Shown here: piece after piece, positions 11,812 to 19,455 of the stretch | Position numbering within the stretch: position 1 is the first letter of the stretch | Layout of the letters: the number at the start of each line of letters is the position of its first letter | Assembly: GCA_028278555.1 (NCBI GenBank) | Contig: JANQEA010000083.1 | Location: forward strand, 1-64,000 | Source: Candidatus Bipolaricaulota bacterium | GTDB lineage: Bacteria > Bipolaricaulota > Bipolaricaulia > UBA7950 > UBA9294 | DNA: 64,000 bases | Direction: 5' to 3' | Notes under the pieces: model-generated | Seen by the model: only the letters and a program-made list of their open reading frames with translations | Told to the model about the DNA's origin: nothing | Database searches by the model: none | Translations under genes and position numbers: made by a program

Positions 11812-13056
11812 GTGAACGGTCGATACCTGCTGGTCGTTGTCGCAGTTCTGCTCTTCGCCGTGAGCGCGCTCGGAAGCGATGGATTCACCGGTAGCTGGCA
11901 TGCGGAGATCGGGCTTTCCCCGCAGGAGGCCGCTCCGTTCTCGGCGTTCCAGTCGACGCTCGACGTTGGCCTCGGCCTGAGCTTCCTCGAGATCGCCAGC
12001 GTGTCCGACTTCCTGTTCGACGGGTGGCTCTGGCAGGAGTTCGATCTGACGGTCGATCTCGGACCGCTGCAGTTCCTCGGCCAGATGCTGTTCGAACCTC
12101 AGAGCGGGTCCTTCATCTATGCCCAGGGAATGCTCAGCGTCCAGTTCCCGCCGGTCATCATCACCATCTACGGTGCTGCCGTCGGGGAGACGTTGCTGCA
12201 GCCGGCGAACTACGGATGGGTCTTCGACATCTACGGGGAGATCTTCGGCGGCGTGCTGACCTTCGAGAGCGCGACGTTCATGGGGGCCGACTTGAGCGAG
12301 ATCACGTTCACGGCCTCGACGACCCAGGTGACGAGCCTGGCGAAGAAGACGTTCCTCACCGATCCGACGATCGATCTGCCGCCGATTGGCTTCTCCGGCC
12401 AGGAGGTCACCTTCACGGCGACCGCCTTCTGCTGCATCGAGCTGATGAGCGTCACGACGTTCAACAAGATCGGATTCGAGAGTCAGGAGCTCGAGCTGTC
12501 GTTCGTCCAATTGTTCGGACTTCCGCTCAGCATCACGCTCGATTTCATCTACACCTTGCAGACGAAGAGCTATGTCTTCACGCCAACGATCGAATCGGAT
12601 TACGGATGCCTCAGCATCTACACGAATCTGCTCGGGGATGGAACCGGGACGATCACCGGCGTCGACGTCTACGGGATCGCGTTCTCGTGCACCTTCGCCG
12701 GGGCGACGCTGACGAGCGTCTCGAACCTGAACACGACCGACTACGTGATCACGACACCCGAGTTCGGCTTCTACGTGGAGGAACTCGCCGAGGCCGATGC
12801 GGAAGGGTACCTCTACTATCCGCAGGAGTACTGGGAGATTGTCTCACTCGTCGTCGATGTGCCGCCGATCGGGTGTGGCTTCTCGTTTATGGTCGACACG
12901 TTCTTCAGCACCTCGACAGGCCTGCTCTTCGACTGGGCGCAGAGCACGATGGGGGTGACCCTCGCCCTGGGCACATCCGTCTCGATGTCGAGCACGATCA
13001 CCGTCGACACGACGGGATTCACCGAGTGGACGTTGTCGTTCGAAGTTTCTTTCTAG
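11812..13056 (+). CDS. Secreted beta-rich, outer-membrane-type protein
   Basis: A 414-residue protein starting at GTG 11812 behind GGGGGAG. A signal peptide (MNGRYLLVVVAVLLFAVSALG) precedes a long series of beta strands rich in Phe, Thr and Gly (ITIYGAAVGETLL, EVTFTATAFCCIEL, ITLDFIYTLQTKSYVF). The protein ends in LSFEVSF, and a C-terminal Phe is the recognition signal of many outer-membrane barrel proteins. No family is recognised. It stands alone between the trmY cluster and the Mrr-like gene. Confidence 0.7.
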   Translation: MNGRYLLVVVAVLLFAVSALGSDGFTGSWHAEIGLSPQEAAPFSAFQSTLDVGLGLSFLEIASVSDFLFDGWLWQEFDLTVDLGPLQFLGQMLFEPQSGSFIYAQGMLSVQFPPVIITIYGAAVGETLLQPANYGWVFDIYGEIFGGVLTFESATFMGADLSEITFTASTTQVTSLAKKTFLTDPTIDLPPIGFSGQEVTFTATAFCCIELMSVTTFNKIGFESQELELSFVQLFGLPLSITLDFIYTLQTKSYVFTPTIESDYGCLSIYTNLLGDGTGTITGVDVYGIAFSCTFAGATLTSVSNLNTTDYVITTPEFGFYVEELAEADAEGYLYYPQEYWEIVSLVVDVPPIGCGFSFMVDTFFSTSTGLLFDWAQSTMGVTLALGTSVSMSSTITVDTTGFTEWTLSFEVSF

Positions 13057-13232
13057 AGTAGTTCCCTGAGAGCTGATGTGGCTGGTAGCAGCCTCGTGTT
13101 GTAGCCAGTCCTCAGTTGTTCAGTTCCGCTGGCCCGAAATCTCTGCGGAAACAGACGAGCCTCCTCAGTCATCCCGTGTGTTGTCCTAAAAGCCTGAGCA
13201 TTAGTAGGATTGATCCCGAAGGAGGTGCGTAC

Positions 13233-14177
13233 GTGCCGGCTCTCAGCTTCCTGGAGATACCAGCGGGAAACGACACTGACTCGGAGTGCGACAGCTTCGA
13301 GTTGTTCGTTCGTGACTTCCTCGAAATGAAAGGATTCAAGATCATCACGGGCCCCGATCGGGGTCCGGATGGCGGTAGGGACATCATTGCCGAAGAAGAG
13401 AGAGTTGGAGGGCTTGGCAGAACGCGTATTCGCTGGCTTGTGAGCTGCAAACATCAAGCGCATTCAGGCAGTTCTGTGAGTGTCAATGCTGAATCAGACA
13501 TACGAGACCGTCTTGAACAGCACGGATGTGCTGGGTTCCTGGCTTTCTACTCAACGCTACCCAGCACATCCCTTAGGGCACGCCTCGACGGTTTGGATGC
13601 AGAGGTTGTAGTCTACGATCGAGAGCGAATCGAAGCTGAGTTGCTTTCGTCACCTGCAGGTTGCAGTCTTGCTAGACGTTACTTCCCGGAATCCATGAAG
13701 CGATGGGAACGCGAAAACCCGAGTGCAGCCGATCTACTCGTAGAAAGAGGCGTGCTCAGGTGCAAGGCATGCGGCAAGGACCTTCTTGCCCCCGAGCCTA
13801 GTGGGATCACCGTTGTGTGGACTCATCGCAACCAAGAAACGGGGAACTCCCTGACGTCTGTTGAGGACTTCTACTGCTGCTGCAAAGGGAATTGTGATCG
13901 GAGCCTGCGAGAATCGCGATCTGAACGCGGATGGGTTGACTCATGGGATGATATCGCTGACGTGATGATCCCTACTGTCTTTCTGAGGTGGGTCTTCACC
14001 CCGCTCAATCAGCTCGGAGCAGGTTGGCGCTACTCAGATTGTGCACTAGAAGGGCTCAAAGACCTTCTGTGGGCTGCGTTCCCGAGGGTTTCTCGTGAGC
14101 TAACAGAGAAAGAGAAGGCCAAGGTGAAGGACCTGTGCAGTCTGCCGTGGTATCTAGGCGGATTGGGAGACGGGTAA
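13233..14177 (+). CDS. Mrr-like restriction endonuclease with a zinc-ribbon-like C-terminal part
   Basis: A 314-residue protein from GTG 13233, chosen because a near-perfect AAGGAGG lies 7 nt upstream. The N-terminal half carries a PD-(D/E)XK nuclease core of the Mrr type: FELFVRDFLEMKGF helix, GPDGGRDI (Asp 46/50) and WLVSCKHQ with catalytic Lys 73. The second half has two Cys clusters (CKACGKDL and YCCCKGNCD) likely to bind zinc. Mrr-like enzymes cut foreign or modified DNA. Codon use is less GC-rich than in the neighbours and it lies beside a tRNA cluster, both signs of transfer. No methyltransferase is adjacent. Confidence 0.75.
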   Translation: MPALSFLEIPAGNDTDSECDSFELFVRDFLEMKGFKIITGPDRGPDGGRDIIAEEERVGGLGRTRIRWLVSCKHQAHSGSSVSVNAESDIRDRLEQHGCAGFLAFYSTLPSTSLRARLDGLDAEVVVYDRERIEAELLSSPAGCSLARRYFPESMKRWERENPSAADLLVERGVLRCKACGKDLLAPEPSGITVVWTHRNQETGNSLTSVEDFYCCCKGNCDRSLRESRSERGWVDSWDDIADVMIPTVFLRWVFTPLNQLGAGWRYSDCALEGLKDLLWAAFPRVSRELTEKEKAKVKDLCSLPWYLGGLGDG

Positions 14178-14242: not shown

Positions 14243-14319
14243 TGGTGGAGGCGAGCGGATTCGAACCGCCAACCTCTGCGTTGCGAACGCAGCGCTCTCC
14301 CGGTTAGAGCTACGCCCCC
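14243..14319 (-). tRNA. tRNA-Ala(CGC)
   Basis: Complete cloverleaf with encoded CCA. The anticodon loop is TTCGCAA, and the G3:U70 pair that identifies alanine tRNA is present in the acceptor stem. It is last in a six-tRNA cluster read on the minus strand. Confidence 0.95.
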
Positions 14320-14337
14320 AAAACAAAAAGCCGCAAT

Positions 14338-14411
14338 TAGCGGCGCAGGGACTCGAACCCCGAACCTCTCGGATATGAGCCGAGCGCTCTGGCCAGTTGA
14401 GCTACGCCGCC
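14338..14411 (-). tRNA. tRNA-Met(CAT), elongator type
   Basis: Complete cloverleaf with anticodon loop CTCATAT and acceptor GGCGGCG / CGCCGCT. CCA is not encoded. The overall sequence resembles elongator Met tRNA more than Ile2, but a lysidine-modified Ile tRNA cannot be fully excluded. Confidence 0.9.
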
Positions 14412-14415
14412 CTGC

Positions 14416-14492
14416 TGGTTGCGGGGGCCGGATTCGAACCGGCAACCTCCGGGTTATGAGCCCGACGAGCTTCCAGATTGCTCCACCCCGCG
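14416..14492 (-). tRNA. Initiator tRNA-fMet(CAT)
   Basis: The C1-A72 mismatch and the GGG/CCC run in the anticodon stem (TCGGG CTCATAA CCCGG) identify the initiator. CCA is encoded. Confidence 0.96.
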
Positions 14493-14510
14493 GTATCTTT
14501 GTCTCTCTTC

Positions 14511-14594
14511 TGCCGGGAGCGGGAGTCGAACCCGCACGAGGTCTCCCTCAAAGGATTTTAAGTCCCTTGCGTCTGCCTATTCCGCCATCCCGGC
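14511..14594 (-). tRNA. tRNA-Leu(TAA)
   Basis: Class II tRNA with a long variable arm (TGAGGGAGACCTC) and anticodon loop CTTAAAA. The discriminator is A and CCA is not encoded. Confidence 0.95.
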
Positions 14595-14617
14595 GTTTTC
14601 GACGTCCCGGCGACTCT

Positions 14618-14692
14618 TGGAGCGGGAAACGGGATTTGAACCCGCGACCCCTGCCTTGGCAAGGCAGTGCTCTACCGCTGAGCTATTCCCGC
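14618..14692 (-). tRNA. tRNA-Gly(GCC)
   Basis: Cloverleaf with anticodon loop TTGCCAA, acceptor GCGGGAA / TTCCCGC and encoded CCA after a U discriminator. Confidence 0.96.
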
Positions 14693-14733
14693 AGAGCCCA
14701 CGCATTATACAGACCCGGTTTTTCGCGTTCAAC

Positions 14734-14815
14734 TGCGAAGGGCGGGACTCGAACCCGCACGCCCGAAGGCACTAGCTCCTAAGGCTAGCGCGTCTGCCAA
14801 TTCCGCCACCTTCGC
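14734..14815 (-). tRNA. tRNA-Leu(TAG)
   Basis: Class II tRNA with anticodon loop CTTAGGA and a long variable arm (TGCCTTCGGGCG). It is the first tRNA of the cluster, 9 nt behind a predicted -10 box. CCA is not encoded. Confidence 0.95.
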
Positions 14816-14853: not shown

Positions 14854-14884
14854 GAAAACGGGGCGAGGAAGGTTCCCCGCCCCG
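14852..14884 (-). terminator. Terminator of the Ala-rich protein gene
   Basis: On the minus strand a stem CGGGGCG / CGCCCCG with further inner pairing (GGAA/TTCC) is followed by TTTTCTT. It sits 30 nt after the stop of the Ala-rich gene. Confidence 0.85.
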
Positions 14885-14913
14885 CGGACTTCGAGTCCCT
14901 AGCTCGTTGATGA

Positions 14914-17900
14914 CTAGTACATCGCGGTCGACTCCCGATAGACGGCTCGGATCTGCCCGCCCTGCTGGATCGTGACGAGCAGGAGCTCCGCTTCGGAGAA
15001 CGGGATCCAGACCCCTTGCTGGGCATCGAAGCGCTCCCAGTGAGAGAACCTGAGCTGTCGCTGCTCGCGGGTCCACGCCTCCTGCTGAGGCTGCAGCAGG
15101 AACTGCGTCCCCGCGCGGCCGCACAGCTCGAACGCCGTCATGTACTCCTCGGAGCGATTGACGACGACGGTGACGGAGATCGGATTGTTCTCGGTCTGTG
15201 GTTGCGAATAGGCGGTTGTCGTTCCGATCACCGTGTACTGATGGACCGCGCTGACGCTGATGCACGGTGTGGTCGGTTCGACCGTGATCCTCGGACCCTC
15301 CGACAGGTAAACCGCGCGAACGGTCAACCCTTGCTGGAGGACGACCGGGAGGACGATTTCCGTCGAGACCGCTGCCCACGAATCGGAGCCCGGATCGTAT
15401 CGCTCCCAGCGATCGAACGGGATCAACTCATCGTCGACGGTGATCTCCGGGAATGCCCGGAGTAGGTACTGATGTCCGGTCTCTCCGCAGAGCTGGAACG
15501 AGGTCGTGTAGGTCTGCGAGTTGTCGACGAGGATCTCCGCTGCGATGTCGGTGATCGACCCCGAGAAGAAGAGGAATCCGGGCGTCTCGTGCGCTGCTCG
15601 GACAGTGATGCATGCCCTCGAGGTCTCCGGGCGACCGCCTGTCGCACTGACCAGGACGATCAGCTCGACGACCGGACACTGCAGCCGATCGATGAACAGA
15701 TACCGAACGGTGTAGAGCCCAGCGCTCGGGAAGGTTCCGGAGAGCGAACCGCGGTTCGTGCCGAGATCGAGCGAGAACATCGCCGACTCGGGGAAGTTGG
15801 TCTCCACTTCGAAGTAGTCGACGATCGGATATCCGGCGAGGACTGCTGCGATCTCCGAAGGGAAGGACTGCGACGAGTTCGTGTAGGCACCGACTTGCAC
15901 CTGCGCGAACTCCCACTTCAAGAGTTGAGCTTCCTCACAGCCTGAAGGCGTGGGCGTCCCGGACCCCTCATCGCAGCACGAGTCACACGGAGGACACCGC
16001 TGCGGATCGGTCTCCTCGCAGACCGGGATCAGACAGTCCGGATCGATGAATGCCTCGACGGACGTCTGGATGTCCGGTACGACGGCGACGGACGTGCGTG
16101 CAGTCGCTGCCGCCTCCGCAGCCGCAGTCGCCATTGTCAGCGCCTGCGACAGGGCCTCGGCCGTCGCCTGGGCGGCGACGACAGCCCGTGCGGTCGCCTC
16201 GGCTGCTGCCGAGGCGTTCGCCTGTGCCGATGCGGCTGCAAGGGCACACGCTTGTGCCGACGCGTAGGCGTTCGCCTCCGCTGCTGCAAAGGCCTGGGCC
16301 GCTGCGAAGGCGTAGGCCTCCGCTTGAGCTTCGGCGGAGGCTGCGGCATACGCATAGGCTGCGGCATCCGCGAATGCGCTTGCGGCTGCTTCGACGCCGA
16401 CGGCAACGTGTGCTTCGGCTGCGGCCAGGGCGAGAGCCGCGGCATAGGCGGCGGCTTCGGCTTCGGCCTGAGCCAGCGCGATCGCTTCGACACCTACGGC
16501 GACATGAGCCTCCGCCTGTGCTTGTGCGAGCGCAGCGGCATGCGCCTCCGCCTCGGCGGAAGCCAGCGCACCGGCCATCGCCGCGACACCGGCGGATGCC
16601 TCCGCCTGAGCGACAGCGAGGGCTTCAGCAGAAGCTGTTGCAGCTGCATAGGCGTCGGCGACGGCGATGGCCATCGCAGAGGCACTCGCGCCGGCCTCGG
16701 CTTCCGCGGATGCTTGAGCGACAGCACACGCGCGAGCTGCTGCCTCGGCCTCGGCGACGGCCGTGCCGACCGCCGAAGCACCGCTGGCTGCAGCCGCTTC
16801 CGCTTCAGCGTATGCGGTCGCGCATGCCTGTGCGGCGGCTTGCGCCTCGGCTGCGGCACTCGCCGCAGCCTGGGCGTACGCGAAGGCGTCGGCCGAGCTC
16901 GTGGCGATCGCTGCAGCGAAGGCCTGGGCGTAGGCTTCACCGGTTCCGGATGCCTCGGCATCGGCCGCGGCTTGAGCGGATGCCGAGCTTGCCGCTGTGG
17001 CACACGCGCTCGCGGCAGCCTGCGCTTCGGCGGACGCACTCGCTGCGGCTTCTGCGTAGGCTTCGGCAGATGCAACGGCCTCTGCGACCGCGGACGACGC
17101 GGCCGAAGCCGCGCTCTGCGCACGGGCATAGGCTGTGGCAGCGGCGTTTGCGCTCGCCAGGGCTTGCGCTTCAGCGGCGGCATAGGCGCTCGCCCATGCA
17201 TCGGCGTAGGCACTCGCCTCGGCGCACGCGTCGGCGGCAGCATCCGCACTCGCGGACGCTGTTGCTCGCGCCACGGAGACCGCGGACGCCATTGCTTCGG
17301 CCGTGGCGGCAGCCACGGCACAGGATTCTGCGATCGCCTCGGCACTCGCTTCGGCGCTTGCTTCCGACCGCGCGATGGCCGTTGCCATCGCACTGGCCTT
17401 CGCGGCAGCGAGTGCACACGCGCGCGCGACGGCACTCGCTTCGGCCTGCGCGCTGCTGTAGGACACGCCGATCGCTTCCGCGGCGGCGAACGCAGCCGCT
17501 CGCGCTTCGGCGGCCGCCGTGGCGATCGCTTCGGCTTGAGCCTCTGCTTGCGCAGCCGCTCGTGCGATCGCGAACGCAGCGGCGGAGGCCTCGGCCACGG
17601 CGAACGCGTGAGCTTCAGCCACGGCGAACGCAGCGGCTTCGGCTTCGGCATAGGCGACGGCAGCGGCCTCGGCGCGGGCCTCAGCTCGAGCATAGGCAGA
17701 TGCAGCCGCTTCCGCTTCCGCGCTCGCCGACGCTGACGCGAGTGCGGTCGCCTGCGCTGCCGCATCGGCGGCAGCATCGGCTTGGGCCACGGCGGTGGCG
17801 ATTGCCTGGACGACGCCGCTCACTTCGGTCACGACGGTTCCGCACGGAACGGTCGTCTGGATGCTCTCGCTGACCAGTTCAGCGATGTCCTGAGCCTGGG

Positions 17901-18789
17901 AGTACGCCGCAGCGGTCGAGTTGGCGTGGGCATACGCCCGTGAAGCCGCCTGGGCGACAGCCTCGGCCCGTGCCGATGCGCTTGCGGCGACTTCAGCGGA
18001 CGCCTCGGCTTCAGCCTCTGCGCTGGCGTACGCTGCTGCCGCCGCAGCGACGCGGGCTTCGGCGATCGCGACCGCTTCAGCAAGAGCTTCCGCGACGGCT
18101 TCGGCGTAGGCATCGACCTCGACGCCGGCGGCGGCGCAGGCCGCGGCACTCGCCATTGCTTCAGCCTCTGCAACTGCAATCGCTTCTTCGATCTCAGCGA
18201 TCGCAGCGCTCGCTTCAGCGCGAGCGGCAGCACAGGCGACGACCGAAGCGGAAGCATTCGCCTCGGCCTCCGCGCATGCGAGGGCGAAGGCTGAGGCACT
18301 CGCTTCGGCTCGAGCGGCGGCCTGGGCACAAGCGCGAACGCTTGCTTGTGCTCGCGCCTCCGCGGCAGCGCACGCGAGCGCGAATGCGGAAGCTTGAGCC
18401 TCGGCTTCGGCAGCAGCGGCGGCGATCGCCTGGACATTCGCGCTGGCGGAAGCCGACGCACTTGCGCAGGACATGGCCAGGCTCGACGCGGAGGCTTGAG
18501 CGGCCGCCTCGGCACTCGCGATCGATTCCGCGATATGTTGGGCCGTCGCTTCAGCGGACTCTGCCATCGATAGCAAAGCTCCGAAATCGAGTCCGAGTAA
18601 CAGACCTTGTGCCTCCTCGGCAATCGCTTGTGCCTCGGCGGCCGCTTCCGCTGCGGATGCAGCCGCGGCTTCCGCCAAGGCGACAAGGTCAGGGAGGACC
18701 GGGGTTTCCGTTTGTGTTTGCGTCCACGCTGGTACGACGACCGCGAGAACGAACCCGAGGGCGATGACCAGTAGCTTCGCTGACTTCAT
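14914..18789 (-). CDS. Giant secreted protein with an alternating-alanine region and two C-terminal repeat domains
   Basis: A 1291-residue protein from ATG 18789, preceded by AAGGAGG at 8 nt. A signal peptide (MKSAKLLVIALGFVLAVVV) is followed by roughly 870 residues in which almost every second residue is Ala, with Glu, Gln, Ser, Cys, Tyr or Phe between (for example AEAEAQASAFALACAAAEA). In its first part Cys residues recur at spacings of 14, 18 and 32. A Cys-rich linker (RCPPCDSCCDEG) leads to about 350 residues holding two related copies of a ~100-residue domain, each with CIxVxAxH, FxLCGxxG, WERYD/WERFD and a final RAVY. No family is recognised. It may form a long rod or fibre; the helical or strand nature of the repeat is uncertain. 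Confidence 0.85.
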   Translation of the reverse strand: MKSAKLLVIALGFVLAVVVPAWTQTQTETPVLPDLVALAEAAAASAAEAAAEAQAIAEEAQGLLLGLDFGALLSMAESAEATAQHIAESIASAEAAAQASASSLAMSCASASASASANVQAIAAAAAEAEAQASAFALACAAAEARAQASVRACAQAAARAEASASAFALACAEAEANASASVVACAAARAEASAAIAEIEEAIAVAEAEAMASAAACAAAGVEVDAYAEAVAEALAEAVAIAEARVAAAAAAYASAEAEAEASAEVAASASARAEAVAQAASRAYAHANSTAAAYSQAQDIAELVSESIQTTVPCGTVVTEVSGVVQAIATAVAQADAAADAAAQATALASASASAEAEAAASAYARAEARAEAAAVAYAEAEAAAFAVAEAHAFAVAEASAAAFAIARAAAQAEAQAEAIATAAAEARAAAFAAAEAIGVSYSSAQAEASAVARACALAAAKASAMATAIARSEASAEASAEAIAESCAVAAATAEAMASAVSVARATASASADAAADACAEASAYADAWASAYAAAEAQALASANAAATAYARAQSAASAASSAVAEAVASAEAYAEAAASASAEAQAAASACATAASSASAQAAADAEASGTGEAYAQAFAAAIATSSADAFAYAQAAASAAAEAQAAAQACATAYAEAEAAAASGASAVGTAVAEAEAAARACAVAQASAEAEAGASASAMAIAVADAYAAATASAEALAVAQAEASAGVAAMAGALASAEAEAHAAALAQAQAEAHVAVGVEAIALAQAEAEAAAYAAALALAAAEAHVAVGVEAAASAFADAAAYAYAAASAEAQAEAYAFAAAQAFAAAEANAYASAQACALAAASAQANASAAAEATARAVVAAQATAEALSQALTMATAAAEAAATARTSVAVVPDIQTSVEAFIDPDCLIPVCEETDPQRCPPCDSCCDEGSGTPTPSGCEEAQLLKWEFAQVQVGAYTNSSQSFPSEIAAVLAGYPIVDYFEVETNFPESAMFSLDLGTNRGSLSGTFPSAGLYTVRYLFIDRLQCPVVELIVLVSATGGRPETSRACITVRAAHETPGFLFFSGSITDIAAEILVDNSQTYTTSFQLCGETGHQYLLRAFPEITVDDELIPFDRWERYDPGSDSWAAVSTEIVLPVVLQQGLTVRAVYLSEGPRITVEPTTPCISVSAVHQYTVIGTTTAYSQPQTENNPISVTVVVNRSEEYMTAFELCGRAGTQFLLQPQQEAWTREQRQLRFSHWERFDAQQGVWIPFSEAELLLVTIQQGGQIRAVYRESTAMY

Positions 18790-18871
18790 CACATCAACCT
18801 CCTTGATTGGTCACCGGATCCGCTGAAGGGGGAGCACGACCTACTACGCTGGCGGTGCGGTGCGTCCTACA

Positions 18872-19429
18872 CTATGGGCAGGCCGAACAGCTGCTGCTGC
18901 CCCAACCCCACCAGAAGAGTCGTGGGAAGGACAAGCAGCCGGTCTGGCACGTGCTGACGAAGACGAGCGTCGTTCGGCAAGCGCAGCTGGTGATTGTCGA
19001 AACACCCTCACAGACACAGGTCGAGCACGGGTTGCACCATCCGCAGTTGTTGCACGGATCGTAGAGCGAGAAGCAGCGAGAGAGCGTTCCCACCGACGTG
19101 TCGACGTACAACTTGTACTGGCCTGCGACAACCGCGATACCGCTCGCGTCAACCTGAGCCCAAGCCCCTTGCCAGACGGCGGATGAGACAGGAGCATCGT
19201 GCACGACGGAGTAGATGACCTGCTCCGCGCTGTTCACGATTCGCCAGCCGAGAACGAGAGTCTCCTCGCATGTGCAGCATCCCCAGAACCATGTGGTCGA
19301 ATCCTCAATGCGGAACTGGATGTTCTCCCCGAGCTTGAAGCGCGTGGAGCTTGCCGGCAACGCGACGAATGACGCGAGGACCATCACCAAGAGGAGCACT
19401 CCACCGATCGAGATCCATCTTCCCTTCAC
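18872..19429 (-). CDS. Secreted cysteine-rich protein
   Basis: A 185-residue protein from GTG 19429, which has GGAGG 8 nt upstream. An N-terminal signal or anchor helix (WISIGGVLLLVMVLASFVAL) precedes a ~90-residue part that looks beta-rich (RIVNSAEQVIYSVVHDAPV, GIAVVAGQYKLYVDTSVG). The C-terminal third is packed with Cys (DPCNNCGWCNPCSTCVCEG, SCACRT, CQTGC, CSACP); 16 Cys in all. It lies 82 nt upstream of the Ala-rich giant on the same strand with no terminator between, so they are probably made together. Disulphide cross-linking outside the cell is an inference. No family recognised. Confidence 0.7.
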   Translation of the reverse strand: MKGRWISIGGVLLLVMVLASFVALPASSTRFKLGENIQFRIEDSTTWFWGCCTCEETLVLGWRIVNSAEQVIYSVVHDAPVSSAVWQGAWAQVDASGIAVVAGQYKLYVDTSVGTLSRCFSLYDPCNNCGWCNPCSTCVCEGVSTITSCACRTTLVFVSTCQTGCLSFPRLFWWGWGSSSCSACP

Positions 19430-19455
19430 AGCTATCACCTCCGAACCAGTTGACC

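Follow-up and report, generated by a model that had tools for sequence, protein, structure and literature searches.

The gene considered here lies on the minus strand of a 64,000-nucleotide window, positions 1 to 64,000 of contig JANQEA010000083.1 (assembly GCA_028278555.1, Candidatus Bipolaricaulota bacterium). The initial annotation described a giant exported protein at 14914-18789, with alanine at nearly every second position. The observation is real, but the coding strand is the minus strand. A plus-strand reading gives several stops in translation and was rejected. The open frame has 1292 codons, and ATG 18789 behind an AAGGAGG is its likely start. A motif of this type lies directly 5' of the start codon in most orthologs, whose open frames are 1205-1343 aa long. 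The N-terminus runs from a basic start through a hydrophobic core to a T/Q-rich polar stretch, a layout that the orthologs share. The protein is giant, and this signal-like N-terminus suggests that it is exported and cleaved. Behind the N-terminus come an Ala/X region of about 870 residues, a Cys-rich linker and immunoglobulin-like (Ig-like) beta domains. We argue that the Ala-rich region probably forms a rigid rod of three antiparallel helices, about 43 nm in length, that carries the Ig-like domains at its C-terminal end.

The alternation is confirmed by a two-residue periodicity test. Between residues 40 and 905 Ala makes up 366 of 433 even residues (85%) against 69 of 432 odd residues (16%). 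Where an even site lacks Ala it mostly has another small residue (S, V, G or T), and Gly and Pro are rare. Occasional phase slips had been read in the pattern, but there are no net slips in the window protein. The seeming ones are odd sites that are also Ala, or even sites with another small residue. The register is constant, and the Ala autocorrelation is as strong at lag 40 (1.49) as at lag 10. The Cys spacings of 14, 18 and 32 that had been noticed are borne out as the series 32, 14, 18, 14, 32. A 32-residue periodicity of the intervening X residues is real as well, with an identity excess of z 4.6 at 32 and 3.3 at 64.

The region is not one uninterrupted stretch. Breaks near residues 315 (VPCGT) and 616 (GTG), both conserved among orthologs, divide the window protein into three near-equal helices of 285, 300 and 283 residues. 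In most relatives in the phylum the helices are exactly 253, 268 and 251 residues, which is 32 residues or nine turns less in each. Distances between anchor motifs agree: they are 286/299/284 in the long class, the clade of the window protein, and 254/267/251-254 in most others. When the helices are aligned, the two classes differ by exactly 32 residues in each of the three. The extra unit of helix 3 is placed differently by two alignments, but both make it exactly 32 residues and the anchor-to-anchor lengths agree. Orthologues with different repeat lengths, which the initial annotation proposed to look for, do exist, but their lengths change in 32-residue steps and in all three helices together. 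Among 20 complete orthologs none has the extra unit in just one or two helices. The long class forms one clade on the tree, and its five members share a single length change. Helices lying side by side would require just such a change, common to three separate places in the chain. Apart from this, a short Cys-containing loop has been added to helix 1 in three orthologs (L036-L038).

The cysteines point to the same topology. Cys173 and Cys459 co-occur perfectly (both in 29 and neither in 4 of 33 proteins), Cys141 and Cys491 nearly so (phi 0.88), and Cys109 and Cys523 are found only in the long clade, within its extra units. The positions of each pair sum to 632, which means that the members of every pair are equidistant from residue 316, that is, from turn 1. 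Two other column pairs with high phi, 377-831 and 767-891, were rejected since they mark one clade and misfit the turn geometry. A covariation test independent of Cys was made on odd columns, with all Cys columns removed and the signal summed along all diagonals. Its p value is the chance of such a maximum anywhere on the full range. The maximum for helices 1 and 2 falls at h1+h2=636 against 632 expected from the turns (p 0.02), for helices 1 and 3 at h3-h1=604 against 601 (p 0.035), and for helices 2 and 3 at h2+h3=1244 against 1233 (p 0.25). Wrong-topology controls gave p 0.055 or more. The lengths, the cysteines and the covariation are each of moderate weight, and jointly they agree on one fold.

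In that fold the exported chain would run out along helix 1, return along helix 2 after the turn VPCG (315-318), and run out again along helix 3 after the turn GTG (616-618). This would give an antiparallel bundle in which each helix has about nine 32-residue units, each unit of nine helical turns. Disulfides 109-523, 141-491 and 173-459 would probably tie helices 1 and 2 together. The result would be a single rigid rod, with a Cys-rich linker after helix 3 that carries three Ig-like domains.

One can imagine a chain that does not fold back on itself, with the rod formed by one helix of 870 residues, by a homo-oligomeric coiled coil such as SlpA, or by a domain-swapped dimer. Deep-branching diderms do have envelope spacers of this sort, among them a 28 nm homotrimeric coiled coil and rods of 45-50 nm (PMC9388160, PMC5082667). 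Against this stand the helix breakers and a conserved Cys at the thirds of the region, and three segments that change length jointly. The Cys and covariation registers are antiparallel for neighbouring helices and parallel for helices 1 and 3, which also argues against it. A domain-swapped dimer with identical contacts could have these registers too. We consider the absence of fold-back within the chain improbable, though it is the best of the alternatives.

A second alternative concerns the secondary structure itself. The initial annotation offered silk-like strands or a special helix. In the first case extended beta-strands with an all-Ala face would stack as sheets in a surface fibre. Silk fibroins likewise have a small residue at every second position, and a strict two-residue period that includes the outward positions is needed by a beta-strand and not by an alpha-helix. 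The X residues nevertheless follow an alpha-helical period. The odd-position classes (hydrophobic, polar, Ser/Thr, Ala) have a frequency of 0.436 per dipeptide, which un-aliased is 3.55 residues per turn, and a second peak, at 0.127, is at the place required of that helix's second harmonic. With helices 2 and 3 pooled all four classes are above the 95% shuffle limit at the helical period, and in every one of the three segments one class or more passes this limit. When the residues are ordered by their angle around the helix, a single hydrophobic stripe shows on each helix, and outside it the residues are mainly polar or small. Spacings of 14, 18 and 32 residues, as seen for Cys, each return to one face of a 3.55-residue helix. 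For the Ala region AlphaFold2 (AF2) predicts nothing but helix, without strand, and breaks the helix at about residues 313-318 and 615-619. Gly is rare here, unlike in silk fibroins, and so is Pro, and the co-varying cysteines suit a hairpin of long arms. The strands are therefore unsupported, and we regard them as very unlikely. The special helix was the better of the two ideas, and we read it as a chain of three long helices, each folded back against the one before. Compared with a canonical coiled coil and its 3.5-residue hydrophobic heptad, the period of 3.545-3.552 is nearer to 32/9 than to 7/2, and large residues are almost confined to alternate positions.

A third alternative makes the rod a stalk in an interbacterial toxin particle, as UmbC is in Streptomyces; the C-terminal domains would then be the cargo or bind a receptor. 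In UmbC, which measures about 30 nm as a whole, a single chain makes a stalk of long helices, as we propose for the rod. When Foldseek is run on the Ala region its first match is UmbC of the Umb1 particle (8w20_A), a non-significant one at E 0.06. At E<=0.001 Foldseek finds nothing for the rod. UmbC differs by its TAT signal, its ALF repeats and its toxin domain. Pfam finds no ALF repeat in our protein, there is no sequence match to 8w20_A at E<=10, and Pfam, NCBIfam and AF2 reveal no toxin domain or family in its C-terminal part, where the domains are Ig-like. The idea of a stalk is similar, but a toxin stalk seems slightly less likely even than silk.

The C-terminal part deserves attention for what it does contain. 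The two related domains noted at first are present, and a third Ig-like domain precedes them. He_PIG profiles match 4 of 14 orthologs (best 7e-5) and do not match the window protein itself. AF2 models the head as beta sandwiches with a predicted local distance difference test (pLDDT) score of 78. Foldseek matches of the head begin at E 2e-5 and include GhpA domains and many Ig/FN3 proteins. From these profiles and models, the three domains resemble surface or adhesion proteins in general. The window's own genome also encodes an exported protein of 588-602 aa (locus L050, contig C57, 4576-6339) that consists of head domains without the Ala rod and repeats the last of them several times.

A DNA-level artefact does not explain the alternation. 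Codon identity at shared Ala is 0.23-0.35 between orthologs against 0.24-0.30 expected, which is chance level or barely above it. Even sites are nonetheless 77-86% identical to the window protein, and odd sites 26-43%. In the closest ortholog pair the ratio of non-synonymous to synonymous change (dN/dS) is 0.03 at even sites, 0.11 at odd sites and 0.27 in the C-terminal part. Since the Ala codons are scrambled and dN/dS is low, the alternation must be kept by selection on the protein, and this selection is strongest on Ala. It had been said that a lack of orthologues together with a dN/dS near 1 would speak against the protein; the outcome is the opposite. A low-complexity relic of 6-bp or 96-bp repeat expansion with no selected fold would suit the 6-bp periodicity of the gene and the gain or loss of 32-residue units, but it is refuted by Ala retained over scrambled codons, by even-site dN/dS of 0.02-0.05, and by helix lengths that are equal in most of the 20 orthologs, the five long ones sharing one change.

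What could such a rod be for? Helical rods that conserve length but not sequence are typical spacers (PMC5082667). Here length is kept while odd-site identity drops to 26-43%, and this is the mark of a molecular spacer (PMC5082667). Omp-alpha and SlpA are envelope spacers in other deep-branching bacteria (PMC9388160). Like Omp-alpha of Thermotoga and SlpA/OmpM of Deinococcus-Thermus and other deep-branching phyla, our protein is predicted to be an exported helical rod within 28-50 nm whose length is conserved, and it too is likely a spacer of fixed length. The differences are clear as well. Those proteins have an SLH domain and an outer-membrane anchor (a beta-barrel or a transmembrane helix), and SlpA is a homotrimer. 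The rod protein has one chain for three helices, Ig-like domains and Ala at every second residue. Pfam finds no N-terminal SLH domain in the whole protein, and no beta-barrel or C-terminal transmembrane anchor was found at the C-terminus, which is made of Ig-like sandwiches without a hydrophobic segment. The rod is most likely a stalk or spacer of the envelope or surface that holds the Ig-like domains at a set distance. If the rod itself is granted, we would put this function at about an even chance. The surface fibre of the initial annotation may exist, but the least that the data call for is one rod, some 40 nm in length, with Ig-like domains attached.

Another comparison, as a lead only, is with Ala-rich helical bundles such as Maxi, an antifreeze protein of fish. 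There too, long helices with a very high Ala content fold back to make an antiparallel bundle. Maxi binds ice, is far smaller, and is a dimer of four helices with 11-residue repeats; we know of no strict two-residue alternation in it. A profile search of the rod against the PDB gave no match to Maxi. The best matches in that search were low-complexity QA runs, which were rejected as homologs.

It must be noted that several points weigh against the three-helix spacer. The confidence of AF2 in the rod is modest (pLDDT 68.5, predicted template modelling score 0.35), with low-confidence stretches midway along each helix. What we take from AF2 is the helices and the positions of the breaks. By itself the covariation of helices 2 and 3 lacks significance, and p was as low as 0.055 for one control topology. 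About two events in evolution underlie the Cys covariation, and a single branch of the tree underlies the shared change in length. A 5-residue insertion in helix 3 of L038 breaks both parity and helical phase, although it may be an error. In the way of an anchor, the protein shows no SLH domain, lipobox, LPXTG or membrane segment. Finally, a lone rod in water does not account for the outward even positions. Across 35 orthologs the polar fraction of even positions in the outer half is 0.00 in helices 2 and 3 and 0.07 in helix 1, against 0.54-0.59 at odd positions.

The last point could make sense if the rods pack against one another through their Ala grooves, which is our guess. Residues of the same parity would lie on i, i+4 ridges, so that two large and two Ala ridges wind once per 32 residues. 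It is a tentative possibility that the strict alternation is a helix packing code, a two-start screw of 32-residue pitch whose outer sides mesh into a paracrystalline layer or filament. A step of 32 is the shortest at which parity and helical phase are both preserved, which would explain length changes of 32 residues. The computations show the helical period, the topology and register of the three segments, the length quantum and the selection on the protein; we infer the abundance and location of the rods, as we do their spacer role and lateral packing.

The distribution of the protein was examined in several ways. A search with the C-terminal part found it in 19 of 60 related genomes. A 14-fold GCNNNN pattern with at most one mismatch is present in 43 of 100 genomes of the phylum. 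A search for the linker motif in one genome per species of GTDB 220, which alone covered other phyla, found 20 loci. Their titles are Bipolaricaulota, Acetothermia or Bipolaricaulis except for two, titled uncultured bacterium and Thermotoga sp. By these searches the protein appears to be restricted to Bipolaricaulota. As first suspected, no family with this build is known: the rod matches none in Pfam, NCBIfam or the PDB, Pfam has nothing above cut-off on the whole window protein, and a literature search turned up no paper on alternating-Ala helices. The family varies at its edges. L099 is a divergent form with shorter arms. Genome G061 has two rod genes, and one of them (L098) is an open frame of 1636 aa with a short-class rod and several extra Ig-like domains. 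In two genomes (L046, L047) the head is intact and the Ala region is shortened or out of frame, which is either a real loss or an assembly collapse of repetitive DNA. In a distant relative from another family (L101, 2596-5148) the N-terminal domain is a different one, the Ala/X part is a short hairpin with an LPC turn, and the C-terminal domains are others.

Table. Features of the rod gene and its surroundings in the window, in order of position
Feature	Position	Strand	Basis or remark
Six-tRNA cluster Leu-Gly-Leu-Met-Met-Ala(CGC)	14243..14815	-	directly downstream of the rod gene
Terminator-like hairpin	14858..14885	-	just past the stop; consensus scan, number found not above chance
Whole gene, 1292 codons	14914..18792	-	GTG 18792 or likelier ATG 18789 to stop 14914; open reading frame scan
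C-terminal head, residues 951-1292: He_PIG-like Ig domain and two related beta-sandwich domains	14917..15942	-	profiles, AF2
Linker, residues 901-950: conserved TSVxVVP...IDPxCLxPxC, then Cys-rich stretch	15943..16092	-	sequence comparison
Helix 3, residues 620-900, Ala/X	16093..16935	-	period 3.545-3.547; AF2 helix
32-residue unit of helix 3, about residues 700-731, missing from short class	16600..16695	-	placement ambiguous
Turn 2, SGTGE, residues 615-619	16936..16950	-	AF2 break; orthologs have +0 or +2 residues (GT--GEAY / GTxGSxAY)
Helix 2, residues 320-614, Ala/X	16951..17835	-	period 3.552; AF2 helix
32-residue unit of helix 2, about residues 506-537, with Cys523, missing from short class	17182..17277	-	alignment; edges ambiguous
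Turn 1, VPCGT, residues 315-319	17836..17850	-	AF2 break; Cys317 in all orthologs covering the site
Helix 1, residues 33-314, Ala/X	17851..18696	-	period 3.549-3.551; AF2 helix
32-residue unit of helix 1, about residues 84-115, with Cys109, missing from short class	18448..18543	-	alignment; edges ambiguous (repetitive)
Predicted signal peptide, residues about 2-25	18718..18789	-	sequence features
Shine-Dalgarno AAGGAGG	18798..18804	-	directly 5' of the start; read from sequence
Small exported Cys-rich protein	18875..19438	-	directly upstream of the rod gene, same strand

As a clue to function, the conserved neighbourhood yields just two things: the tRNA cluster and, for some members of the family, the small Cys-rich exported protein. 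The tRNA cluster stands in identical order beside the ortholog at five other loci in two families of the phylum (L037, L043, L044, L064, L070). The same six tRNAs in the same order imply that these rod genes are true orthologs. The tRNA-Ala(CGC) would read the many GCG codons of the rod gene. The small upstream protein combines an Ig-like part with a tail very rich in Cys; in one relative it weakly resembles FlgD_ig. It adjoins the ortholog in four other genomes of the family (L036, L037, L038, L043), and is a candidate partner of the rod. On the other side, an Mrr-type restriction endonuclease (window 13149-14174, plus strand) adjoins the tRNA cluster. Beyond it lies a gene for an exported beta-rich protein with the aromatic end LSFEVSF and no Pfam match (11812-13056, plus strand). 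A copy 57% identical lies near the ortholog in L043. This product may be an outer-membrane barrel, and if it is, it bears on whether the phylum is diderm.

Long helical rods of the envelope are a known kind already. What is new is the proposed single-chain antiparallel three-helix rod of about 285 residues per helix with alternating Ala, which no family tested in Pfam, NCBIfam or the PDB matches. It joins two rules that were thought to belong to different folds, the beta-like two-residue alternation and the alpha-helical period. Because the three helices changed length by nine turns simultaneously, sequences by themselves can test the fold. The phylum in which both rules are conserved is little known; its best-studied member, Ca. 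Bipolaricaulis, bears bipolar prosthecae, and its envelope has been compared with that of Thermotoga (PMC6092417). If it is true that the rods mesh through their Ala grooves, this would be a new design rule for protein fibres and a new way to build helical ones.

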